This document shows positions 28,528 through 32,819 of a stretch of DNA of 64,000 nt, one piece after another; position 1 is the stretch's first letter; every line of letters begins with the position of its first letter. Origin of the DNA: Ezakiella massiliensis (GTDB lineage Bacteria; Bacillota; Clostridia; Tissierellales; Peptoniphilaceae); NCBI RefSeq assembly GCF_900120165.1, contig NZ_LT635475.1, positions 1,674,001 to 1,738,000 of the forward strand, in the 5' to 3' direction. The notes beneath the pieces are model-generated. The model made no database searches, was not told the origin of the DNA, and saw only the letters and a program-made list of their open reading frames with translations. The position numbers and the translations under genes are program-made.

Positions 28528-28537
28528 ACAAAAATTT

Positions 28538-28560
28538 AAAGGGCCTCTTGGCCCTTTTCT
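28538..28560 (+). terminator. Terminator after cdaR
   Basis: Perfect arms AAAGGGCC and GGCCCTTT with loop TCTT, then TTCT. Confidence 0.85.
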
Positions 28561-28679
28561 CATATTTAGGGATATTTAGGGTCTAATTTGCGGTTAAAAT
28601 TGCGAATTTTTGCAGTGTTCGACATTTTGCTCATTCCGACGTACCCTTTAGTACGCCTCATTCGACAAAATGTCTCAAG

Positions 28680-28754
28680 CTACAAAAATTCATCATTTTT
28701 TCCTCTCAAATTCATTTCCAGCGTCCTAAAAAATTGTTTCACTTCGAATCTCAT
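28680..28754 (-). other. Possible micro-ORF with strong ribosome binding site (24 codons)
   Basis: Minus-strand AGGAGG eight bases before ATG, opening 24 codons starting MRFEVKQFFRTLEMNLRG and ending NDEFL. The ribosome binding site and first six codons equal those at 20900. Translation is unproven. Confidence 0.3.
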
Positions 28755-28820
28755 CGATTTATCCTCCTAAATATTATTATGCTAGGGTGTAAGTTGCGGT
28801 TAAAATTACGAATTTTTGTG

Positions 28821-28878
28821 AAATAAAATTTCGCGTAGCGTGTAGCGTCCGATTTATTTCGGACAAAAATTTTTATTT
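28821..28878 (+). repeat. REP-like GTAG hairpin, intact long form
   Basis: Arms AAATAAAATTT and AAATTTTTATTT enclose CGCGTAGCGT and GTAGCGTCCGA, loop TTTATT, TCGGAC. The inner stem GTCCGA/TCGGAC is fully paired. It is the closest relative of the split unit at 20956. Confidence 0.7.
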
Positions 28879-28901
28879 AACGTCGAAGCCCTAGCCCAAG
28901 A

Positions 28902-28949
28902 GGTCAATTTTCTGTAGAGGTCACCTTTATGGTGACCAAAAAAATGACC
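28902..28949 (+). repeat. REP-like GTAG hairpin with GGTCACC stem
   Basis: GTAG at 28914, stem GGTCACC/GGTGACC around CTTTA-type loop, then AAAAAAA. Outer arms GGTCA..TTTT and AAAA..TGACC also pair. Same design as the other units with a different stem sequence. Confidence 0.65.
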
Positions 28950-29268
28950 GATTGGATAGCAGGTCTCGTGTCAGAGGTTCCCAAGAGAGCGAGTTATAAC
29001 GATGCTCGATTGGTGAATCTTACGGCACTCATCAATTTATCCTCATAAATATGTTTTGCAATGGTGCGTAAATTGCAACATTCTCGTGAAACAAATTTTT
29101 CTTTATAAATATTTTTTAAAAGATTATTGAATTTAATTATTTTTAATTTATAATTTAATTACATTGACCGCTTGAAACTGTTCAAGAGAACTCGAACTCC
29201 AGGGTGTTGGAAATTCAAATCATATTCTTGCACCTAAAAAATAAATTTTACAATCCACCTTTTTTGCC

Positions 29269-29297
29269 TTGACATATAGAATCATGAGTGCTATACT
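29269..29297 (+). promoter_or_regulatory. Promoter of the FMN riboswitch-ribU unit
   Basis: TTGACA and TATACT separated by 17 bases, ending six bases before the aptamer. Confidence 0.85.
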
Positions 29298-29302
29298 CTA
29301 AT

Positions 29303-29415
29303 CATCTTCAGGGGGAGGTGCAATTCCTTTACCGGTGGTATAGTCCACGAGCGTCAGCTGACGCAGAACAGGTTAGATTCCTGTACCGACGGTTATAGTC
29401 CGGATGTGAGAAGAG
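29303..29415 (+). ncRNA. FMN riboswitch (RFN element)
   Basis: Conserved blocks in order: ATCTTCAGGGGGAGGTG, AATTCCTTTACCGGTGG, AGTCCACGAGC, GATTCCTGTACCGACGG, ATAGTCCGGATGTGAGAAGA. P1 pairs CTTC with GAAG at the ends. It senses FMN and sits before a riboflavin transporter, as expected. Confidence 0.96.
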
Positions 29416-29442
29416 GTCCCCTTGTATTTTGGGGCTTTTTTT
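29413..29442 (+). terminator. FMN riboswitch terminator
   Basis: CCCC (29418) pairs with GGGG (29431) within a stem-loop followed by a seven-base T-run, between aptamer and ribU start. Expected to form when FMN is bound. Confidence 0.75.
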
Positions 29443-29471
29443 ATGCCCTCAATCAAAAGGAGGAAATGAAG

Positions 29472-30116
29472 ATGAAAATGTCAACGAAAAAAATGACTGC
29501 ACTTGCTATGTGTGCAGCAATCAGCTATCTTGTAATGGTTTTTGGTAGGATTCCAATTGTACTTTTTTTAAAGTTCGATCCTAAGGACGCGGTCCTTGCC
29601 ATTACAACATTAATTTTTGGCTTGGTCCCATCACTTTTGGTGACTGCTGTTGTGTGTTTGGTAGAATTTTTTACTGTCTCAGACACAGGCTTTTGGGGTT
29701 TACTAATGAACTTTGTAGGTTCAGCGGCCTTTATCGTTCCGCTTGCAACTATGGTTAACCGCAAGGATGACACCAAGTGGACAGCTTTAGCCCTACTTGT
29801 AAGTACTCTTGTGATGACTTTCATAATGCTTGCATGGAATATTGTTATTACACCAATTTATATGAAGGTCCCATTTGCAGAAGTTAAAAAGTTATTGCTA
29901 CCAGCTATACTTCCATTTAATATTTTTAAAGGACTTTTAAACTCTGCCCTAACATTTGTGGCCTTGCCAATTGTTCCAAGATTAAAAAAGACCTTGGACT
30001 TGCAAGACGAAGAGGTAGATCACATTGGCATTGGTCAAGTCGCTTGGATTTCATCCCTGCTACTTGTATCAGCTCTAATAATTTATTATGCTCTAAACAG
30101 CCCTATGGGAAAATAA
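29472..30116 (+). CDS. ribU: Riboflavin ECF transporter S component
   Basis: Substrate-binding membrane subunit for riboflavin uptake, which docks on a shared ECF energy module not present in this window. Typical start TKKMTALAMCAAISYLVMVF with the AxxxA docking pattern, then IPIVLFLKFDPKDAVLAI, the family's riboflavin-binding loop. About six helices, 214 residues. AAAGGAGG lies eight bases before this ATG; an ATG two codons upstream is too close, and earlier in-frame starts fall inside the riboswitch. Controlled by the FMN riboswitch. Confidence 0.94.
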   Translation: MKMSTKKMTALAMCAAISYLVMVFGRIPIVLFLKFDPKDAVLAITTLIFGLVPSLLVTAVVCLVEFFTVSDTGFWGLLMNFVGSAAFIVPLATMVNRKDDTKWTALALLVSTLVMTFIMLAWNIVITPIYMKVPFAEVKKLLLPAILPFNIFKGLLNSALTFVALPIVPRLKKTLDLQDEEVDHIGIGQVAWISSLLLVSALIIYYALNSPMGK

Positions 30117-30130
30117 TATATACCGATCGA

Positions 30131-30164
30131 AGATCCGCTTATTTTTTAAGCGGGTCTTTTTTTA
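30131..30164 (+). terminator. Terminator after ribU
   Basis: Arms AGATCCGCTT and AAGCGGGTCT (one mismatch), then a seven-base T-run. Confidence 0.85.
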
Positions 30165-30188
30165 TGCACAGATGGGTATAAATTCATT

Positions 30189-32819
30189 ATGATGGATGGA
30201 TATGTATATAAAATTTTAAATAAAATTGAAGATACTGGAAATACTGCCTATGTAGTTGGTGGGGCAGTCCGTGATTATCTACTTAAAAGAAAAATTCACG
30301 ACTACGATATCACCACGTCTTTAAATCCCAAGGAGCTTAAAAAACTTTTTCCCAACTCTATTATGGTCAATAAAAAAATGGGAACGGTAACTGTAAAGGG
30401 AATTGAGATTACCCCTTATAGAATTGAGTCGGCCTACGAGGATGGCAGGCGGCCAAGCAAAGTTCGTTTTTCAAGATTGCTCGAGGATGATCTGGTGAGA
30501 AGGGACTTTACTATTAATGCCATTGCAATGGGTAAGGATGGCAATATTGTAGATAAGCTTTCTGGCAGAGATGATTTGGATAAAAAAATAATCCGCTGCG
30601 TGGGAAATCCCGACCGGCGTTTTAGGGAAGACGCTCTTCGGATGCTAAGGGCCATTCGTTTTGCCTGTCAACTGGACTTTAGAATTGAGGGACGTACCCT
30701 GAGGGCCATTCGTCGAAATGCAGATTTGATTTATAAATTGTCGACAGAGAGGGTTAGGGATGAGTTTAATAAAATTTTGCTGTCCGACAATGTTATCTTG
30801 GGTTTGGATCTTTTGAGGTCGACTGGACTTTTGGAGAGGATTATTCCAGAGTATAAAAATACTTACGATTATGACCAGCTCAACCACCATCACAAATATG
30901 ACTTGTACAATCACATGATAAGGGTGGTAAAGTTTTCTAATAAGGATTTGCCGACCAGGCTGGCGGCTCTCTTGCATGATATTGAAAAGCCATCTTGCCA
31001 AGAGGTCTTTGCGGATGGGACAGCTCATTATTATGGACATGATAAAAAATCCGCACAAACTGCCAGGAGGATTTTAAAGGATTTAAAATATCCAAAGGCG
31101 ACAGTTGATAAGGCAGGCAAGTATATTGAAAACCACATGAACGCCGACCCCAACATTGGCCTACGCGGCGTTAGACGGATGAGAAATAAATTTGGCGACG
31201 ATATTTATAATTTTTTGTCTTTGCTCTATGCCGATTCGGTGTCGGCAAGTGGCGAGGACCTTGAAAAAATTGACAAATTGCACAAAATGTTAGATAATAT
31301 TAGCCAAGAAGAAGATTTTAATAAAGGGAATGAAATTTGCATTAACGGCAATGATTTAATAAATATTGGATACAAAGAGGGAGTTAAAATCGGCGAGGCT
31401 TTGTGTAAACTCAAAGACCTTGTTGAGCTGGGTTTAAAAAACAACAGAGAGACCCTTCTGAGTATTGCAAAGGAATTCCAAAGTGGAGGGAATATGAAAA
31501 AATATTTTGGCACAGATGGAGTTAGGGGAATAGCAAACACTGAACTTACAAATGAATTTGCATACAAACTGGCTAGAGCTGTTGGTAAGTTTATAGAAGG
31601 AAACAAGAGGGTTGTGCTTGGTATGGACACCAGGCTTTCATCGCCTATGTTTATGGCTTCTATTACCGCAGGACTTATGGCTGAGGGTGTTGAAGTCGAC
31701 CAGGTGGGAGTTATATCCACACCGGGTGTCGCTTACATTACAAAGACACATGGGTATGGTATGGGGATTATGATTTCCGCATCCCACAATCCATATATGT
31801 ATAATGGAATAAAATTAATTGGCGCTGACGGCTACAAGCTGAGTGACGATGAAGAAATCGTAATTGAAAATATGATCGACAACCTGGAAGCTGAGACCTA
31901 TGATGGCGATAAGCTGGGCAAAGTTTCAATTGCTAAAGATTTATTTAACGATTACTTGATCCATCTGGAAGGCCTGGCAGGCGATGGCTTTAAGGGTATG
32001 AAGATTGCAATCGACGCTGGCAATGGAGTTATGAGTGAGATTGCGCCAAAAGTTTTTAGGGAACTGGGCGCAGAAGTTATAAAAATAAATTGCGATTCAA
32101 ATGGCAGGTATATAAACGATAAGACTGGTTCGACTGCTCCTGAAAAGATTGCCAAGCTCACCAAAGATGAAGACTGCGATATTGGTGTCGCCTTTGATGG
32201 TGATGCAGATAGAGTTATATTTGCAGATGAAGATGGCAATGTCCTTGATGGCGACCACATCATTTGCTATGGAGCCCTTTGCCTCAAAGAAGAGGGCAGG
32301 CTTTCAAACAATGGAGTTGTTACGACTAGCATGAGTAACGGGGCCTTTGAAAAGTATTTAAAAGACCACGAAATAGAACTCATTAGGGCAGATGTTGGCG
32401 ATAAGTATGTAATGGAGGCCATGAGAAAAAATGGCATGGTCTTGGGTGGAGAAAAGTCGGGCCACATTATATTTTTAGACCACTTAACCATGGGCGACGG
32501 CTTGCAAACTGCTATTATTATTTTAAATATGCTTAAAAAACGCGGGGAGAAGGCTTCGACTATTGGCAAGCTCTACCAAGATTATCCACAAGTGCTCGTC
32601 AATGCAGATGCCAGTGATGAAATTAAAAAAACTTACAAGGAAAATAAAAATATTAGCAAGGCCATTGATAATTTACTGGAAAAACACCCTGACTATAGGA
32701 TTCTAATTAGGCCTTCAGGAACTGAAAAGTTTGTGAGAATTATGATAGAAGGCAGTCCGATTGGAGAAATAATTGTAGAAGCTAATAATTTAAAGGCTAT
32801 TATTGAAAAGGAGAACTAG
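30189..32819 (+). CDS. cca-glmM: Fusion of CCA-adding tRNA nucleotidyltransferase and phosphoglucosamine mutase
   Basis: One 876-residue frame. Residues 1-435 are a class II tRNA nucleotidyltransferase: YVVGGAVRDYLLKRKIHDYD with the catalytic DxD, RRDFTINAIAM, and an HD domain (RLAALLHDIEKP). Residues 436-876 are complete GlmM, which makes glucosamine-1-phosphate for cell wall: KKYFGTDGVRGIANTE, active serine SASHNP (about S532), metal loop FDGDADRVIF, GGEKSGHI and RPSGTEKFVRIM. No stop separates them, but GGAGG sits four bases before the internal ATG at 31494, so free GlmM may also be made. The first ATG lacks a ribosome binding site; a TATAAA at 30177 hints at a leaderless start. A sequencing error that removed a stop cannot be excluded. 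Confidence 0.85.
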   Translation: MMDGYVYKILNKIEDTGNTAYVVGGAVRDYLLKRKIHDYDITTSLNPKELKKLFPNSIMVNKKMGTVTVKGIEITPYRIESAYEDGRRPSKVRFSRLLEDDLVRRDFTINAIAMGKDGNIVDKLSGRDDLDKKIIRCVGNPDRRFREDALRMLRAIRFACQLDFRIEGRTLRAIRRNADLIYKLSTERVRDEFNKILLSDNVILGLDLLRSTGLLERIIPEYKNTYDYDQLNHHHKYDLYNHMIRVVKFSNKDLPTRLAALLHDIEKPSCQEVFADGTAHYYGHDKKSAQTARRILKDLKYPKATVDKAGKYIENHMNADPNIGLRGVRRMRNKFGDDIYNFLSLLYADSVSASGEDLEKIDKLHKMLDNISQEEDFNKGNEICINGNDLINIGYKEGVKIGEALCKLKDLVELGLKNNRETLLSIAKEFQSGGNMKKYFGTDGVRGIANTELTNEFAYKLARAVGKFIEGNKRVVLGMDTRLSSPMFMASITAGLMAEGVEVDQVGVISTPGVAYITKTHGYGMGIMISASHNPYMYNGIKLIGADGYKLSDDEEIVIENMIDNLEAETYDGDKLGKVSIAKDLFNDYLIHLEGLAGDGFKGMKIAIDAGNGVMSEIAPKVFRELGAEVIKINCDSNGRYINDKTGSTAPEKIAKLTKDEDCDIGVAFDGDADRVIFADEDGNVLDGDHIICYGALCLKEEGRLSNNGVVTTSMSNGAFEKYLKDHEIELIRADVGDKYVMEAMRKNGMVLGGEKSGHIIFLDHLTMGDGLQTAIIILNMLKKRGEKASTIGKLYQDYPQVLVNADASDEIKKTYKENKNISKAIDNLLEKHPDYRILIRPSGTEKFVRIMIEGSPIGEIIVEANNLKAIIEKEN
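31485..31496 (+). promoter_or_regulatory. Internal ribosome binding site and start for GlmM
   Basis: GGAGGG, four spacer bases from the GGAGG core, then ATG (31494), in frame within the fused gene and exactly at the usual GlmM N-terminus (MKKYFGTDG). Indicates that glmM was, or still is, translated separately. Confidence 0.7.

Follow-up and report, generated by a model that had tools for sequence, protein, structure and literature searches.

GlmM (phosphoglucosamine mutase) and the CCA-adding enzymes are both described as stand-alone proteins, and the gene studied here resembles each of them over half its length. With stand-alone GlmM (TIGR01455; solved chains 7ojr and 3pdk) it shares four Pfam domains, a family score above the cut-off and the checked motifs, both chains being 43 to 44% identical to its GlmM half in a Foldseek fold search; unlike stand-alone GlmM, it has a whole tRNA nucleotidyltransferase ahead of the GlmM start codon. 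With stand-alone class II tRNA nucleotidyltransferases/CCA-adding enzymes (6ibp, 1miv), it has the head, RNA-binding, HD and C-terminal parts in common, all over their Pfam cut-offs; its head and neck match those of the solved CCA enzymes and the motifs are present, but it lacks a stop and runs on into GlmM. Adjacent cca-glmM pairs in the same bacterial family have the same gene order, with the cca stop usually within 10 nt of the glmM start, yet their products are two separate proteins, the genes being either out of frame with each other or divided by an in-frame stop. Genes with an internal in-frame translation start, giving a long and a short product, are a known class and carry, as here, a Shine-Dalgarno (SD) motif and an ATG inside the frame; the difference is that the short product predicted here would be an entire housekeeping enzyme, once encoded by a gene of its own.

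The fused gene, cca::glmM, lies in a 64,000-nucleotide stretch of the Ezakiella massiliensis genome (hereafter, the window; all coordinates refer to it). Bacteria of the genus Ezakiella live in the human gut and vagina; the genome under study has 1.74 Mb on one contig, and E. peruensis is its closest named relative. The gene occupies positions 30189 to 32819 of the forward strand as a single open frame of 876 codons plus a stop, according to both the ORF list and a search of its own genome. Residues 1 to 435 (30189 to 31493, forward strand) form a class II tRNA nucleotidyltransferase, probably CCA-adding, as judged from Pfam, NCBIfam model NF009814 and motifs, with the domains PolyA_pol (20 to 136), RNA-binding (163 to 223), HD (240 to 366) and tRNA_NucTran2_2 (290 to 426). 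Residues 436 to 876 and the stop (31494 to 32819, forward strand) form the GlmM half, identified by TIGR01455 and chain 7ojr, with PGM_PMM domains I to IV all within residues 438 to 856. This half has its own ATG at 31494, which encodes residue 436 and corresponds to residue 1 of 7ojr in the alignment. A GGAGG SD motif (31485 to 31489, forward strand) lies within the fused frame, 4 nt before this ATG, and spans the two Gly codons of the linker. A first, sequence-only reading of this DNA had described an in-frame fusion of two complete enzymes with no stop between them, joined exactly at the normal GlmM start and retaining a ribosome-binding site; all three points held. It had also known of no standard family with this architecture, in agreement with our finding that none of the 20 NCBIfam models listed covers both halves. 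In its own genome, the fusion is the sole cca-like and the sole GlmM-like match, the one other match being 29% identical to the mutase half.

We then examined the identity of the two halves. The GlmM half (31494 to 32816) scores 457.0 bits against TIGR01455, above the curated cut-off of 447.55, and the protein carries SASHNP, DGD[AG]DR, GGE.SGH and RPSGTE, which we take to be the phosphoserine, metal, sugar and phosphate loops of GlmM. The tRNA half passes every Pfam cut-off (PF01743, 109.5 bits against 23; PF12627, 68.9 against 22; PF13735, 31.3 against 27; PF01966, 26.5 against 22). Its score against the CCA tRNA nucleotidyltransferase equivalog NF009814 is 289.3 bits for 30189 to 31493 (282.7 bits on the whole fusion), 0.7 short of the cut-off of 290, and for this reason we file it as a class II tRNA nucleotidyltransferase with probable CCA specificity. 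The checked motifs are intact in both halves in all seven fused rows; the P0004 sequence has RASGTE where RPSGTE is expected, and its near twin, L026, has RPSGTE. We infer that both halves are catalytically active. Of 45 tRNA genes found, 30 were inspected and every one encodes CCA, which makes a repair role for the tRNA half probable; for such an enzyme a fusion that ties its amount to that of GlmM may be tolerated.

The AlphaFold2 model of the fusion (mean pLDDT, 90.5; pTM, 0.57) predicts two confident halves and a short linker, the placement of the halves relative to each other being uncertain. The linker (31482 to 31505, forward strand; residues 432 to 439) is predicted to be flexible and lies between the last CCA helix (420 to 431) and GlmM, with a mean pLDDT of 66 over residues 431 to 440. 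With the last CCA helix closing at residue 431 and the first GlmM strand of at least three residues spanning 444 to 449, both domains are predicted to be complete at the junction. Foldseek returned GlmM and other phosphohexomutase structures as well as CCA-enzyme structures, and 0 of the 50 matches listed was a chain of both kinds.

The cca-glmM fusion is real and conserved. The same frame is open in E. peruensis (L003; 876 aa, 95% identity) and in the metagenome-assembled genome Ezakiella sp. SUG186 (L004; 875 aa, 57% identity). Full-length fusions make up at least five clusters, P0001 to P0005 (67, 15, 2, 6 and 56 members), in a database of 5.8 billion proteins, in which each search gave the best 120 of 8000 scored candidates, so that distant fusions could escape; four are Ezakiella clusters, reaching down to 57% identity. 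Among 130 genomes of the family, at least 4 carry the fusion without a stop, three from Ezakiella (G000, G001, G002) and one from another genus (G024), these figures coming from the best matches listed, so that distant fusions may be missed. No spare copy of cca or glmM was found in any of the four. Samples of the order (249 genomes), the class (391 genomes) and the phylum (398 genomes), which share genomes with one another and with the family set, yielded no further fusion (E-value cut-offs: family, 1e-40; order, 1e-130; class, 1e-130; phylum, 1e-110). Several candidates were rejected: the long open frames of G025, G038 and G007 have a stop or another frame at the junction; G029 (L090) fell away, since only the four known loci are fused among those read; and G097, G203, G224 and G229 of the order sample match both halves in frame with a single stop between them. 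Two genomes were read twice (L003 is L025, and L004 is L026). The sequence-only reading had pointed to a stop in the DNA, or separate genes in all close relatives, as evidence against the fusion; the fused relatives have no stop at the junction, and of the five other Ezakiella genomes two are fused and three are not, giving three of the six examined with separate cca and glmM (G003, G004, G005). We found no CCA-GlmM fusion among the open-access literature matches listed, and the main text of a survey of metabolic gene fusions (PMC4921024) mentions neither GlmM, phosphoglucosamine nor nucleotidyltransferase.

In both the GlmM tree (59 rows) and the CCA tree (41 rows), the seven fused rows fall into two clades, one of five Ezakiella rows and one of G024 and P0005. 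Both trees were built by quick searches, with SH-aLRT as the sole support measure; the GlmM tree omits L077 and L079, both trees omit P0001 and P0004, and the CCA tree has long branches for L029, L030 and L051. The Ezakiella fused clade has a support of 97 (starred) in the GlmM tree and 92 (unstarred) in the CCA tree, and starred branches in both trees require at least two changes. The simplest reading is thus two gains, one in an Ezakiella subclade and one in a second lineage of the family. G024 and P0005 are only 57% identical, which makes the second-lineage fusion old as well.

Evaluation of the locus in 37 family genomes from 17 genera, picked as best matches and not as a random sample, gave 4 fused loci, 25 unfused loci with cca beside glmM and 8 where no cca was found upstream. 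The cca stop lies at most 10 nt from the glmM start in 22 of the 25 adjacent unfused pairs, with an ATGA overlap in two. Among the unfused Ezakiella loci, L028 and L029 have the ATGA overlap and the cca stop of L030 ends 1 nt before the glmM ATG; short gene overlaps accompany translational coupling, according to an excerpt of PMC10666635. We propose that the starting point was a tightly coupled cca-glmM pair in the Ezakiella subclade, in which a minor shift of frame close to the cca 3' end, or the loss of its stop codon, would have let cca read through into glmM, the old GGAGG then being read as Gly-Gly. We infer this exact step from the loci as they now stand. Loss of the boundary between two closely packed genes, with the internal start surviving, is the best explanation of the fusion, which is surprising as a pair and ordinary as a mechanism. 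Because a single bacterial family contains this gene pair in unfused, stop-separated and fused states, the birth of a gene fusion from a packed operon pair can be traced stepwise.

In L029 and L030 (G004 and G005, both unfused Ezakiella), the cca beside glmM is very diverged (28 to 30% identity), sits on long branches of the CCA tree and has none of the three motifs searched for (RRDFTIN, ED.LR and HD..K); it may be changing function or decaying. The protein searches also brought up CCA enzymes with other additions: a C-terminal PEGA domain (P0033, P0042, P0054, P0065), a HAD hydrolase-CCA fusion (P0057), and P0046 (1021 aa), a third union of a CCA enzyme with a phosphohexomutase, in which the latter belongs to a different family. 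Like cca::glmM, these combine a CCA enzyme with an extra domain; their partner is not GlmM, however, and P0046 is a single contig.

Our main reading, to which we give a probability of about 0.62, is that a real fusion, arisen from a coupled cca-glmM pair in the Ezakiella subclade, gives both the fused protein and free GlmM. This requires that the internal start still work, for which the evidence is moderate. GGAGG-N4-ATG is found at the glmM start in 6 of 6 Ezakiella genomes examined, fused or separate, and the second fused lineage (G024, L027) has AAGGAG 6 nt before the glmM ATG. In the window, GGAGG precedes 3 of 410 internal in-frame ATGs (31494, 57113, 59150) versus 16 of 37 genes, making it uncommon at an internal ATG, not unique; for a looser 4-base SD motif, the counts are 25 of 410 versus 30 of 37. 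Here the GGAGG had to lie 3 to 10 nt before the ATG, genes were the longest nonoverlapping ORFs of at least 150 aa, and a gene counted as positive if the motif stood at any start in its first 40 codons. Codons around the junction, in stretches (423 to 446) picked post hoc, are also conserved. Codons 423 to 445 form the second longest of 205 runs of identical codons shared by the window and E. peruensis, and a run as long over codon 436 arose in 1.1% of shuffles. Between the window and L004, codons 431 to 446 have the same codon at 9 of 12 amino acid-identical sites versus 187 of 480 overall, a level reached by 7 of 468 blocks. The DNA compared came from four fusions, three in Ezakiella and one in the second lineage. 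We did not find low mRNA structure at the internal start (predicted value of -6.2, against a mean of -6.15).

The start of cca itself looks different. The cca ATG has no SD motif. Downstream of a terminator-like hairpin and T run (30129 to 30163, forward strand), which lies between the upstream transporter gene and cca, is a -10-like element, GGGTATAA (30174 to 30181, forward strand), 7 nt before the cca ATG; it is the only copy in the window and a candidate promoter of a leaderless mRNA. A scan for sigma-70-type promoters did not pick it up. L003, L004 and L030 carry this element at an identical distance (7 nt) upstream of the cca ATG, and G024 has TATAAT 6 nt before its own; in L028, GGGTATAA lies farther upstream of the likely cca start, itself preceded by an SD-like stretch, and L029 lacks the element. 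A leaderless cca mRNA is thus likely in several of these genomes. A transcript beginning at or just before the cca ATG would yield the fused protein with both active sites, and ribosomes on the kept GGAGG would also initiate at ATG 31494 and make free GlmM. Dual translation is plausible, and the fused protein and free GlmM are the likeliest products; a modest amount of fusion would suffice, as CCA repair is probably all that the tRNA half is needed for. The ribosome-binding site has outlived the cca-glmM fusion, and the pair is well suited to a clean test of whether, after fusion, the supply of one subunit stays separate through an internal start.

The Gly-Gly could instead have been kept for the protein's sake. 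Were the GGAGG and ATG mere relics, all GlmM would be made within the fused bifunctional protein, a possible reading that we consider on the unlikely side. Both halves do keep their motifs, no second gene copy turned up in the four fused genomes, Gly-Gly makes a sensible linker, and the alignment to the solved B. anthracis GlmM (3pdk) begins at chain residue 22, showing that a crystal, at any rate, accommodates extra residues ahead of GlmM. Against this stand the signal and the codons around the internal start, still conserved at 57% protein identity, and the SD-like motif retained in the second lineage as well. Rather doubtful, in our estimate, is a more elaborate form of the main reading, in which a leaderless transcript would give the CCA-GlmM bifunctional protein and free GlmM, possibly assembling into mixed GlmM dimers that tether tRNA repair to wall precursor synthesis, and this would have evolved twice in one family.

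We regard as improbable that the fusion is a near-neutral by-product, with GlmM coming almost wholly from the internal start, cca weakly translated and the fused frame without functional weight. The SD-less and perhaps leaderless cca start, the CCA encoded in the tRNA genes read, by which little enzyme may be needed, and the rarity of fusions (at least 4 of 130 family genomes) fit such a by-product; the spread of the fusion over two clades and over four Ezakiella clusters that reach 57% identity does not, and indicates that it has been long-lasting in both clades.

Selection for a functional link between wall synthesis and either tRNA quality control or c-di-AMP control seems very improbable. 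The same pair was fused twice, and P0046, on one contig, joins a CCA enzyme to another phosphohexomutase family; tight packing of neighbors alone, however, can account for repeated fusion. We know of no metabolite common to the CCA enzyme and GlmM, which also counts against coupling, and cca-glmM is a warning that fusion need not imply a functional tie. As for c-di-AMP, an excerpt of PMC8573169 reports that R126 of Bacillus subtilis CdaA is needed for GlmM binding. Where the B. subtilis GlmM-CdaA pair has this Arg, the aligned CdaA residue is Gln in the window genome and in 29 of 29 relatives, that is, in 30 of 30 loci read (L094 to L123; 40 genomes had a match), whatever their fusion state. 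We located this position by counting from the D171GA and R203HR motifs of that paper; Thr172 and Leu174, named in another passage of it, misfit the count, so that the assignment is probable, not certain. The aligned GlmM contact residues vary among fused and unfused loci alike. The suggestion of the sequence-only reading that the fusion could alter GlmM control of CdaA thus found no support, and we rejected the CdaA contact as a cause of the fusion, since position 126 is Gln regardless of fusion state; throughout this order, the known contact may be missing or take another form. Lastly, a sequencing or assembly error in the window genome is refuted by the open frames in other genomes and species, and we found nothing in its favor.

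The gene neighborhood upstream of cca::glmM holds an ORF for the substrate component of an ECF transporter (29406 to 30116), directly upstream of the fused gene. Some 760 bases without an assigned gene (28530 to 29290) separate a YbbR-like gene from an FMN riboswitch (RF00050, 98.6 bits; 29300 to 29419), which lies ahead of the transporter gene.
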